DNA of 64,000 nt, taken from Alphaproteobacteria bacterium. GTDB lineage: Bacteria > Pseudomonadota > Alphaproteobacteria > Geminicoccales > Geminicoccaceae. The notes beneath the pieces were generated by a model. That model did no database searches, had not been told where the DNA came from, and saw only the letters and a list, made by a program, of their open reading frames with translations. Location: NCBI GenBank assembly GCA_026982705.1, contig JALSGP010000039.1:1-64000 (forward strand). Reading direction: 5' to 3'. Both the position numbers and the translations under genes were made by a program. Below, piece by piece: positions 28,122-32,969 of this stretch (position 1 is its first letter; every line of letters starts with the position of its first letter).

Positions 28122-28238
28122 GCCGCGTCGCATCGGGCGCAAGTCCGGGATTTTCGAGACGATCGTCCGGCAGGCGGCCTTGATCGCGCCGGGCGCCGTG
28201 GGACATGGTCGCCTCCGGAGCGGACGCGCGACGTGCCC

Positions 28239-30026
28239 ATGGCCCCCATCCAGGACCTCGAGCTCGGCCTCGTCGGCAACTGCACCGTCAGCGCCCTCGT
28301 CGATTCCCGGGCGCGGGTGGTGTGGTGGTGTCTCCCCCGCTTCGACGGGGATCCGGTCTTCCATCATCTGCTGGACGGCGAGGGGGAGGACGGGCTGTTC
28401 GCCGTCGAGCTCCTGGACGGGGTGACGAGCGAGCAGCGCTATCTCGACAACACCGCCGTGCTGGAGACGGTGCTGCGCGATTCCCGCGGCGGCGCCGTCC
28501 GCGTGATCGACTTCGCGCCGCGCTTCGAGATGTACGGGCGCATGTTCCGTCCCACCATGCTGGTGCGGCAGGTGGAGCCGCTGAGCGAGGCGCCCCGCAT
28601 CCGCATCCGCCTGCGCCCGCGCTTCGACTGGGGACGGCTCGCCCCCCAGATCACCCGCGGCAGCAACCACGTCCGCTACGTGGGTCCGGCGCTCTCCCTG
28701 CGCCTCACCACCGACGCGCCCGTCACCTATCTGCTGGACGAGACCCCCTTCCATCTGGAGCGGCCGCTCGCCTTCGTGCTGGGGCCGGACGAGAGCCTCA
28801 CCCAGGGCGTGCGGGAGACGGCGCGGGACTTCCGGGAGCGGACGGTGGACTACTGGCGGCGCCTCTCCCGCCGCCTCCACATCCCCTTCGACTGGCAGGA
28901 GGCGGTGATCCGCTCGGCCATCACCCTCAAGCTCTGCAGCTTCGAGGAGACGGGCGCCATCGTCGCCGCCCACACCACCTCCATTCCCGAGATCCCCGGC
29001 ACCGAGCGCAACTGGGACTACCGCTACTGCTGGCTGCGGGACGCCTTCTTCGTGGTGCGGGCCCTCAACCGTCTCGGTTACGTGGAGACCATGGAGGACT
29101 ACATCGACTATCTGGTCAACGTGGTCTCCCGCAGCCCCGACGGTCATCTCCAGCCGGTCTACGGCATCGGCCTCGAGACCCGGCTCGAGGAGCGGGTGGT
29201 GGCGCATCTCTCCGGCTATCGGGGCAACCGGCCGGTGCGGGTGGGCAACGACGCCTGGACCCACGACCAGCACGACGGCTACGGCTCGGTGATCCTGGCG
29301 GTGATCCAGGCCTTCTTCGACCGCCGGCTGGAGCGGCCGGCCGGACCCCGCCACTTCCACCTGCTGGAGCGGCTCGGCGAGAAGGCCTGGGAGCTGCACG
29401 CGGTGCCGGATGCGGGCCTCTGGGAGTACCGCACCCGCCGGCGGATCCACACCCATTCCAGCCTCATGTGCTGGGCCGCCTGCGACCGCCTCGCCCGCAT
29501 CGCCGCCCACCTCGGCCTCGACGCTCGGGCCCGTCACTGGCGGGAGCGGGCCGATCACATCCGGCGGGTGATCGAGGCACGCGCCTGGAACCCGCGACGG
29601 CAGGCCTTCGTCGCCGCCTTCGACGGCGAGGAGCTGGACGCCAGCCTGCTGTTGATGCACCGGATCGGTTTCCTCGCCGCCGACGATCCCCGCTTCCGCG
29701 CGACGGTGGCGGCCATCGGCCGCGAGCTGGCCGACGGCCCCTTCGTCCACCGCTACGCGGGCGAGGACGATTTCGGCCGGCCGGTCAACGCCTTCCTCGT
29801 CTGCGCGTTTTGGTATATCGATGCCCTCGCCGCCTGCGGACGACGCGAGGAGGCGCGCGAGCGCTTCGAGGCCCTGCTCGCCCGCCGCAATCGGCTGGGG
29901 CTGCTGGCCGAACACGTCGATCCGGTCACCGGCGAGCTCTGGGGCAACTTCCCCCAGACCTACTCCCACGTGGGCCTCGTGGACTGTGCCACCCGTCTGA
30001 GCCGCAAGTGGGGCGAGATGCTCTGA
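28239..30026 (+). CDS. Glycoside hydrolase family 15 protein (trehalase/glucoamylase-like)
   Basis: The 595-residue protein has the N-terminal beta-sandwich (LVGNCTVSALVDSRARVVWWCLPRFDG) and the (alpha/alpha)6 barrel of GH15. RNWDYRYCWLRDAFF holds the first substrate-binding motif, GLWEYRTRRR and HSSLMCWAACDR come later, and ETYSHVGLV-like sequence (QTYSHVGLVDCATRLS) near the end supplies the general-base region. It sits directly upstream of otsA (23 bases to the proposed start), a frequent arrangement in proteobacteria, which suggests trehalose or a related glucoside as substrate. No secretion signal is present. ATG 28239 is preferred; GTG 28233 is in frame. Confidence 0.88.
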   Translation: MAPIQDLELGLVGNCTVSALVDSRARVVWWCLPRFDGDPVFHHLLDGEGEDGLFAVELLDGVTSEQRYLDNTAVLETVLRDSRGGAVRVIDFAPRFEMYGRMFRPTMLVRQVEPLSEAPRIRIRLRPRFDWGRLAPQITRGSNHVRYVGPALSLRLTTDAPVTYLLDETPFHLERPLAFVLGPDESLTQGVRETARDFRERTVDYWRRLSRRLHIPFDWQEAVIRSAITLKLCSFEETGAIVAAHTTSIPEIPGTERNWDYRYCWLRDAFFVVRALNRLGYVETMEDYIDYLVNVVSRSPDGHLQPVYGIGLETRLEERVVAHLSGYRGNRPVRVGNDAWTHDQHDGYGSVILAVIQAFFDRRLERPAGPRHFHLLERLGEKAWELHAVPDAGLWEYRTRRRIHTHSSLMCWAACDRLARIAAHLGLDARARHWRERADHIRRVIEARAWNPRRQAFVAAFDGEELDASLLLMHRIGFLAADDPRFRATVAAIGRELADGPFVHRYAGEDDFGRPVNAFLVCAFWYIDALAACGRREEARERFEALLARRNRLGLLAEHVDPVTGELWGNFPQTYSHVGLVDCATRLSRKWGEML

Positions 30027-30048
30027 CGGGGCCGAACGGGAGGGGGCC

Positions 30049-31437
30049 ATTCGTCTCGTCGTCGTCTCCAACCGGGTGAGTCCGGTCACGGTACGTCAGG
30101 CCCACGCCGCCGGCGGACTGGCGGTGGGCGTGCTGTCGGCGCTGCGCCACACCGGCGGTCTCTGGTTCGGCTGGAGCGGCGAGCTGGCCGAGGTGCCGCC
30201 GGCCGAGCCGCGCATCTTCCGCACCGGCCGCATCACCTACGCCCTCACCGATCTCACCCGTGGCGAGTTCGAGGCCTTCTACGGCGGCTTCGCCAACCGG
30301 GTGCTGTGGCCGCTGTTCCACTACCGCATCGACCTCGCCACCTACGAACACGAGTGGTTCCGCGTCTATCTCGAGGTCAACCACCGCCTCGCCACCCAGC
30401 TTCGTCCGCTCCTGGACGACGACGACGTGGTGTGGGTGCACGACTACCACCTCATCCCCTTCGCGGCGGAACTGCGGCGCCTCGGCGTGCGGGCGCGGAT
30501 GGGCTTCTTCCTCCACATCCCCTTCCCGGCGAGCGAGGTGTACGTCACCATGCCCTGGCACCGTCAGCTCGCCGCCGCCCTCTGCGAATACGACGTGGTG
30601 GGCTTCCAGACGGACGCCGACCTGCGCCAGTTCACCGACTACGTGATCCACGAGCTGGGCGGTCAGGTGGGCCCCGACGGGCGGGTGCGGGCCTGCGGGC
30701 GCGAGTTCCTCGCCCTCAGCGATCCCATCGGCATCGAGGTGGACGACGTGCGGGCCATGGCCGTCTCCGGCGAGGCCATGCGCTATGCCCATCGCGTCGC
30801 CACCACCCTCACCGGCCGCCATCTGGTGTTGGGGGTGGACCGCCTCGACTACACCAAGGGCATCCCCGAGCGCCTGCGCGCCTTCGAGCTGCTGCTGCGC
30901 GAGTATCCGGACCACCGGCGGCGGGTGACCTTCATGCAGATCTCCGCCCCCTCGCGCGAGACGGTGCCGGAATACGTGGAGCTGCGCCGGGAGGTGGAGC
31001 TGCTCTCCGGCCACATCAACGGCGTCTACGGCGAGGCCGACTGGGTGCCGCTGCGCCACATCAACCGTGCCTACAGCCGGCGGGCGCTGATGGGGTTCTG
31101 CCGGCTCGCCCGCTGTGCCCTCGTGACGCCTCTGCGCGACGGCATGAACCTGGTGGCCCTCGAATACGTGGCCGCCCAGGACCCGGAGGATCCCGGCGTG
31201 CTGGTGCTCTCCCGCTTCGCCGGCTGCGCCCGTTACATGCGCGGCATCCTCCAGGTCAATCCCTACGACGTCCGTCAGGTGGCCGAGGCCCTCCATCGCG
31301 CCCTCACCCTCAATCTCGCCGAGCGGCGGCGCATGTGGGAGCAGGCCATGGAGACGGTGCAGCACTACGACATCCACCGCTGGCGCCGCACCTTCCTCGA
31401 GGCCCTGGCCGGATCGGCCCTGGGCGGGGACGGCTGA
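30049..31437 (+). CDS. otsA: Alpha,alpha-trehalose-phosphate synthase, probably started at AUU
   Basis: OtsA makes trehalose 6-phosphate from UDP-glucose and glucose 6-phosphate. With the start proposed here the protein has 462 residues, beginning RLVVVSNRV, the conserved N-terminal strand with the phosphate-binding Arg, and AAGGLAVGV. Other GT20 motifs are VWVHDYHLIPFAAELRR, LGVDRLDYTKGIPERL and TPLRDGMNLVALEYVAAQ. No ATG, GTG or TTG lies in frame before these conserved residues. ATT at 30049 stands 5 bases after GGGAGGGGG and gives the expected N-terminus. The first GTG, at 30076, would remove the SNR motif. otsB is not in the window. Confidence 0.92.
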   Translation: MRLVVVSNRVSPVTVRQAHAAGGLAVGVLSALRHTGGLWFGWSGELAEVPPAEPRIFRTGRITYALTDLTRGEFEAFYGGFANRVLWPLFHYRIDLATYEHEWFRVYLEVNHRLATQLRPLLDDDDVVWVHDYHLIPFAAELRRLGVRARMGFFLHIPFPASEVYVTMPWHRQLAAALCEYDVVGFQTDADLRQFTDYVIHELGGQVGPDGRVRACGREFLALSDPIGIEVDDVRAMAVSGEAMRYAHRVATTLTGRHLVLGVDRLDYTKGIPERLRAFELLLREYPDHRRRVTFMQISAPSRETVPEYVELRREVELLSGHINGVYGEADWVPLRHINRAYSRRALMGFCRLARCALVTPLRDGMNLVALEYVAAQDPEDPGVLVLSRFAGCARYMRGILQVNPYDVRQVAEALHRALTLNLAERRRMWEQAMETVQHYDIHRWRRTFLEALAGSALGGDG

Positions 31438-31466
31438 GCCGGCGCCGGCCCGCCGCGGAGGCCGTC

Positions 31467-32969
31467 ATGGATGCCCTCGCCGCCTTCCTCGCCGACTGCG
31501 CGGGCTTCCTGGACGAAGCCGGACTCGTCACCGATCCCGCCGATCGCCGCCGCTTCGAGGTGGACGTCTGGCGGCAGGACGAGGGGCGGGCGGCGGCGGT
31601 GGTGCGCCCGCGCGACGTGGCGGAGGTGCGTCGGGTGGTGGCGGCCGCCTTCCGCCACCGCGTGCCGCTGGTGCCCCAGGGCGGCAACACCGGCCTCGCC
31701 GGCGGCGGCCTGCCCGACGGTTCGGGCCGCATGGTGGTGCTGTCGCTGGAGCGGCTGCGCCGCATCCGCCATCTCGACCCGGCCGGCGAGTATCTGGTGG
31801 CGGAGGCGGGCTGCGTGCTGGCCGAAGTGCAGGAGGCGGCCGCCCGCATGGACCGCACCTTCCCCCTCGACCTCGGCGCCGCCGGCAGTTGCCGCATCGG
31901 CGGCAACGTCGCCACCAACGCCGGCGGCATCCACGCGCTCCGCTACGGCACCATGCGCCGGCTGGTGCTGGGGGTGGAGGTGGTGCTGGCCGACGGCAGC
32001 CTGCTGGACCGTCTGCACACCCTCGACAAGGACAACCGCGGCTATGCCCTGGAACAGCTCTTCGTGGGCAGCGAGGGCACCCTCGGGGTGGTGACGGCGG
32101 CGAGTCTGCGCCTGGTGCCGCGGCCGCGTCACCGGCTCACCGCCTGGCTGGCGGTGCCCGAGGCGGCGGCGGTGGTGGAGGTGTTCCGCCGCACCCGCGA
32201 CCGTTTCGGCGAGCTGCTGGTGGCCTGTGAGCTGCTGTCGGAGGCCGCCGTCGATCTCGTGGTGGGCCGGCTCGGCGCGCGCCGGCCGGTGGCGGCACCC
32301 TGTCCCTGGCACCTGCTGCTGGAGCTGGCCTGGGGCTTCGACCTTCCCCTCGAGGACGCCTTCACGGCCCATCTCGCGGAGCTGATGGAAGGTGGGCCGG
32401 TGGCGGACGGCACCCTCGCCCTCGACGAGGGGAAGCGGCGGGCGCTCTGGGCGATCCGCGAACGGGTGAGCGAGGCGGCGGCCCGCGCCGGTCGGGTGGT
32501 GCGCAGCGATCTCGCCGTGCCCACCGCCCGCGTGCCGGAACTGCTGGCCGAGGCGGAGGCCCTCGTCGCCCGCCTCCTGCCCGAGGCGCGCCCCATCCCC
32601 TTCGGCCATCTCGGCGACGGCAACATCCACCTCAATGTCCTGGTGCCGCCGGAGCGGCTGGCCGAGGGCCACGCGAAGCTGCGGGAGCCCCTCGCCGATC
32701 TGGCGGTGCGGCTGGGTGGGACCTTCAGCGCCGAGCACGGCATCGGCCGCCACAAGCGGGCGCTGCTCGCCCGCCACGCCCGTCCCGGCGAGCTGGCGGT
32801 GATGGCGGCCCTCGCGGCGCTGTTCGATCCGCGGGGGATCCTGAACCCGGGCGTGCTGCTCCCCGACGGCCTCACCCCCTGGCGGGCGGGGGAGCACGGG
32901 CCGGAGGGTCTCAGCGCTCGGGCGGGGCCGTCGCCCGCCAGCGGCGGCGGGGACGGCGGCCGGCGCTGA
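31467..32969 (+). CDS. FAD-binding D-2-hydroxyacid dehydrogenase (GlcD/D2HGDH-like)
   Basis: A 500-residue flavoenzyme that oxidises a D-2-hydroxy acid such as D-2-hydroxyglutarate, D-lactate or glycolate. The PCMH-type FAD domain shows VVRPRDVAEVRRVV, VPQGGNTGLAGGG, SCRIGGNVATNAGG and VGSEGTLGVVTAASLRL. The C-terminal FAD-oxidase domain has FGHLGDGNIHLNV with the metal/substrate histidines, and FSAEHGIGRHK. Relatives with this spacing are often 2-hydroxyglutarate dehydrogenases, but the acid is not determined. ATG 31467 lies 29 bases after otsA. The last 30 residues are low-complexity and overlap the convergent MT-A70 gene by 59 bases. Confidence 0.9.
   Translation: MDALAAFLADCAGFLDEAGLVTDPADRRRFEVDVWRQDEGRAAAVVRPRDVAEVRRVVAAAFRHRVPLVPQGGNTGLAGGGLPDGSGRMVVLSLERLRRIRHLDPAGEYLVAEAGCVLAEVQEAAARMDRTFPLDLGAAGSCRIGGNVATNAGGIHALRYGTMRRLVLGVEVVLADGSLLDRLHTLDKDNRGYALEQLFVGSEGTLGVVTAASLRLVPRPRHRLTAWLAVPEAAAVVEVFRRTRDRFGELLVACELLSEAAVDLVVGRLGARRPVAAPCPWHLLLELAWGFDLPLEDAFTAHLAELMEGGPVADGTLALDEGKRRALWAIRERVSEAAARAGRVVRSDLAVPTARVPELLAEAEALVARLLPEARPIPFGHLGDGNIHLNVLVPPERLAEGHAKLREPLADLAVRLGGTFSAEHGIGRHKRALLARHARPGELAVMAALAALFDPRGILNPGVLLPDGLTPWRAGEHGPEGLSARAGPSPASGGGDGGRR

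Follow-up and report, generated by a model that had tools for sequence, protein, structure and literature searches.

A probable AUU start codon for otsA, shared with a sister species, in a genome of the Geminicoccaceae

Translation of otsA, the trehalose-6-phosphate synthase gene of the window (the whole 64,000-nucleotide stretch of an alphaproteobacterial contig analysed here), very probably starts at the AUU codon at 30049, directly behind a strong Shine-Dalgarno site and with the same codon at the matching place in a sister species. The features on which this reading is based are as follows.

28233-30026, + strand: GH15 family protein, trehalase-like (TREH_N + GH15; PF00723 E 3e-54, PF19291 E 2e-12)
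29998-30000, + strand: in-frame TGA that shuts the otsA frame upstream, from translation
30038-30046, + strand: Shine-Dalgarno site GGGAGGGGG, with its GGAGG core at 30039-30043, 5 nt before ATT
30049-30051, + strand: probable otsA start codon AUU, near-cognate; ATT also in the sister species
30049-31437, + strand: otsA, trehalose-6-phosphate synthase (GT20), 462 aa, assigned from TIGR02400 and PDB relatives
30052-30075, + strand: codons 2-9, RLVVVSNR, kept in nearly all relatives and lost with a start at GTG 30076
30076-30078, + strand: first standard start codon, GTG, judged to be internal Val10; no Shine-Dalgarno site (duplex energy +1.7 kcal/mol with an assumed anti-Shine-Dalgarno sequence)

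Translation of 29902-31500 placed the nearest upstream stop of the otsA frame at TGA 29998-30000 on the + strand, and none of the next 16 codons, ending at 30048, was ATG, GTG, TTG or CTG. An earlier note on this DNA had claimed that no ATG, GTG or TTG precedes RLVVVSNR; the claim holds, with CTG now included. When the codons were read through, the sole near-cognate start between this stop and GTG 30076 was ATT 30049, and the region runs in the order TGA 30024-30026 (the GH15 stop codon, in a different frame and 22 nt ahead of ATT), CGGGGCCGAACGGGAGGGGGCC, ATT 30049-30051, CGT CTC GTC GTC GTC TCC AAC CGG and GTG 30076. An ATG at 30018, near the end of the GH15 gene, was rejected as lying in the wrong frame and being missing from the sister species. 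ATT accounts for 1.1 per 1000 codons and isoleucine is written ATC in >94% of cases in this 73% GC contig, whilst the 92 predicted gene starts comprise 49 GTG, 41 ATG and 2 TTG; this codon and start background was drawn from the 129.7-kb contig only.

The strong Shine-Dalgarno site that the earlier note had placed ahead of ATT 30049 proved to be among the strongest on the contig. Its duplex energy of -10.5 kcal/mol ranked 8-11 among the 92 contig starts (best ~12%), the anti-Shine-Dalgarno sequence being assumed because neither a 16S gene nor a 16S 3' end was found in the assembly. Folding predictions for the RNA around the start pair part of the site; in neither ATT species was the structure more stable than shuffled controls, so we claim no hairpin control.

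Initiation at AUU would give a product of the length expected of OtsA, as the earlier note had proposed, its 462 residues meeting the TIGR02400 model at its first position (E 3e-162, residue 2 aligned to model position 1). The GT20 domain spans the full length (PF00982, 397.6 bits vs a cut-off of 32.5), and the solved OtsA structures 5uof and 1gz5 (PDB) likewise align from residue 2. TIGR02400 was the best family and matched over its full length, although the score of 540.3 bits missed the equivalog cut-off of 564.85, which is a pipeline naming threshold and not a functional test. Name-assigning pipelines may label the window OtsA (30049-31437) generically, given a score below that cut-off. 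If AUU is residue 1, CGG 30073-30075 becomes residue 9, the counterpart of E. coli Arg9, which binds glucose-6-phosphate (PMC1769515) and opens the Arg9-Gly22 loop included in the catalytic centre (PMC5685639); the strand IRLVVVSNR, with this arginine, is present only with the AUU start.

The alternative that survives best, though it is unlikely, is a start at GTG 30076 and a protein without the first nine residues. GTG 30076 is the first standard start codon, a mechanical ORF caller using standard starts opened otsA there, and the shortened protein keeps a strong GT20 match. However, this codon has no Shine-Dalgarno site, the TIGR02400 match of the shortened protein opens at position 19 and scores 18 bits lower, and the conserved strand and its glucose-6-phosphate-binding arginine would be deleted, even though codons 2-9 evolve synonymously (2 synonymous and 0 non-synonymous changes between the window and the sister species). 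The behaviour of the ORF caller agrees with the earlier expectation that standard callers would pick this GTG at the cost of the active-site strand, RLVVVSNR and the Arg9 counterpart both being lost. Since the start is most probably AUU, ordinary annotation would likely cut OtsA short, without its substrate-binding Arg9.

The second ATT start comes from a separately assembled MAG of the same genus (G002 = WFXL01000006, loci L004/L082), whose OtsA shares 95% protein and 89% DNA identity with that of the window. Its leader reads TGA GGGCCCAGCGGGAGGGAGACCG ATT CGT CTG GTG GTC, so that ATT stands at the matching place, with the GH15 stop likewise 22 nt away and GGGAGGG kept, whilst the rest of the leader has drifted (roughly two-thirds identity between the pair). 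Codon 4 of the sister gene is GTG, which was rejected as a shared start, being too far from its Shine-Dalgarno site and absent in the window. Of the 152 otsA differences between the pair, 123 fall at third positions (27% of third positions differ), and with dN 0.031, dS 0.449 and dN/dS 0.07, otsA in the ATT pair is under strong purifying selection; the GH15 gene pair gave a dN/dS of 0.24 in an ungapped comparison. Because dN/dS is 0.07 while both copies carry ATT, otsA must be translated. Statistically, three bases kept in a single sister species carry little weight, and they tell mainly against a sequencing error.

These comparisons bear on the remaining alternatives. That the otsA start codon has been lost and the gene is decaying appears very improbable: another MAG of the genus (G003) keeps only a frameshifted GH15-OtsA deletion remnant, so the genus may be able to do without the pathway, but otsA of the ATT species is full length, has no stops and evolves at the dN/dS given above, and otsB is present in the window genome. 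The otsB homologue lies on another contig (G000:C19:77641-78339) and does not adjoin otsA. In the G003 remnant (L130, G003:C10, 2381-2880, minus strand), GH15 to approximately residue 83 is fused to the last 100 OtsA residues, followed by a frameshift; it is either the product of an operon deletion or a mis-assembly, and no otsA start is left in G003 to compare. Less probable still is a sequencing or assembly error at 30051, with ATG misread as ATT. A single substitution would yield ATG CGT CTC, but the recurrence of ATT in a second species, assembled independently and with a leader that has diverged, makes a base-calling error unlikely, and no close relative has ATG at the start codon. A relative with ATG, which the earlier note had named as counter-evidence, was sought; the sister has ATT and the others CTG, GTG or TTG, with no ATG in the nearest 11-member clade. 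Finally, production of OtsA as a frameshift fusion with the adjacent, same-strand GH15 protein, with no separate start, is scarcely credible given the GH15 stop, which lies in a different frame 22 nt before the otsA start, the strong Shine-Dalgarno site between the two genes and a GH15-otsA distance that is not fixed but varies between species from -13 to >+100 nt.

With AUU 30049 as the preferred start, the nearest relatives indicate where it may have come from. The nearest clade of 11 OtsA sequences comprises 6 CTG, 2 GTG, 1 TTG, 2 ATT and 0 ATG starts. CTG stands one codon earlier in G001, a genome of the same genus with an intact gene, and in 3/3 genomes of the next genus, with a strong GGAGG before each, and at L093, L090, L006 and L005 the open frame ahead of RLVVV has no NTG codon other than CTG. 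In the tree, the two ATT genes fall together in a single clade (100/100) within a CTG-rich group, and the codon preceding ATT in the sister species is CCG, which one substitution separates from CTG. An attractive reading is that the ancestral gene lost a CTG start and that initiation shifted one codon down to ATT; it stays tentative because support is weak (93/44) for the branch joining G001 to the ATT pair. The step to AUU may have cost little, since the otsA lineage probably used a weak CUG already. At L083, L084, L085, L005, L006, L090 and L093, otsA is apparently CUG-started behind a strong Shine-Dalgarno site and is probably misannotated publicly.

Beyond this clade, weak UUG or CUG starts of otsA are common in Alphaproteobacteria, and the start often overlaps the 3' end of a GH15 trehalase-like gene that precedes it. 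Overlap with this gene end (WEEAFWRGS* and the like) was found at 28 loci from Ancylobacter, Ferrovibrio, Stella and others (L010-L013, L015, L021, L030, L031, L036, L037, L041, L043-L046, L049, L052, L054, L056, L061, L062, L070, L103, L104, L107-L110), where the start is formed from the Phe codon TTY and the T-G of the next Trp, giving TTG or CTG. The overlapping Phe is TTT in 18/28 loci against 2.4 expected (TTT being 9% of Phe codons in these genes), an excess with a nominal P of 4e-14 that ignores kinship of the loci. The excess suggests a preference for UUG over CUG at the overlap, as if by selection, and gives independent support for the position of the otsA start. These overlaps also show that weak starts are the norm for otsA in this group. 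The literature searched, with incomplete coverage, held nothing relevant on otsA with a CTG or other non-AUG start or on its translational coupling.

The earlier note had called AUU starts very rare and named infC and pcnB. The rarity is supported by one survey, in which switches to AUU affected 1/61,358 ancestral AUG starts and 1/5,080 GUG starts (PMC5622118); the two genes are not the sole cases, as an AUU start has been shown by experiment for S. aureus cvfC1 (PMC13009471) and is predicted for lepA in two species (PMC1780047). Like otsA, infC of E. coli is a chromosomal gene with the rare AUU start, which there serves autoregulation of the encoded IF3, a factor that discriminates against such codons (PMC1780047). 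In contrast, otsA is a metabolic gene, and because infC of the window genome starts with ATG, IF3 does not appear to be autoregulated here as it is in E. coli. The E. coli pcnB gene resembles otsA as an AUU-started gene other than infC, but its AUU has been tested by experiment and limits synthesis (Binns and Masters 2002, as reported in PMC1780047), whereas that of otsA is known from sequence. In S. aureus, ribosome profiling uncovered conserved non-canonical starts with extended Shine-Dalgarno sites, as in otsA, in cvfC1 (AUU) and ccpN (AUA), with reporters in poor medium yielding ~10% of the output from AUG (PMC13009471); unlike otsA, these encode a regulator and a small protein of a Firmicute. 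The CUG- and UUG-started otsA genes of related Alphaproteobacteria share with the window gene a weak non-AUG start, a strong Shine-Dalgarno site and often a place behind GH15, but their NTG lies one codon further upstream, whereas the window otsA has AUU.

Initiator tRNA-Met would decode the near-cognate AUU 30049 as Met, with the strong Shine-Dalgarno site 5 nt upstream holding the ribosome there, and ribosomes finishing GH15 22 nt upstream would possibly, even probably, help otsA initiation. We infer AUU decoding itself, low OtsA output, help from GH15 and an effect of IF3 level. Low output would be expected because the S. aureus AUU and AUA starts gave ~10% of AUG output (PMC13009471), an effect of IF3 on otsA is plausible, and control of otsA by IF3 level and GH15 coupling are put forward as hypotheses. 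Across much of the lineage the otsA start is predicted to be weak and non-AUG. A speculative extension, which we consider rather doubtful, is that selection has favoured weak initiation by UUG, CUG or AUU throughout the lineage as a means of holding OtsA at a low level and tying it to GH15 translation, with AUU the most extreme variant and responsive to IF3 and growth state.

Overall, otsA is, by its sequence, a well-supported addition to the class of genes with AUU starts, with no new mechanism involved. That the gene of a metabolic enzyme keeps AUU in two species, amid relatives that already use CUG, suggests how starts of this kind may come about. Ultimately, otsA offers a natural AUG/GUG/UUG/CUG/AUU series at one gene for tests of start-codon strength.
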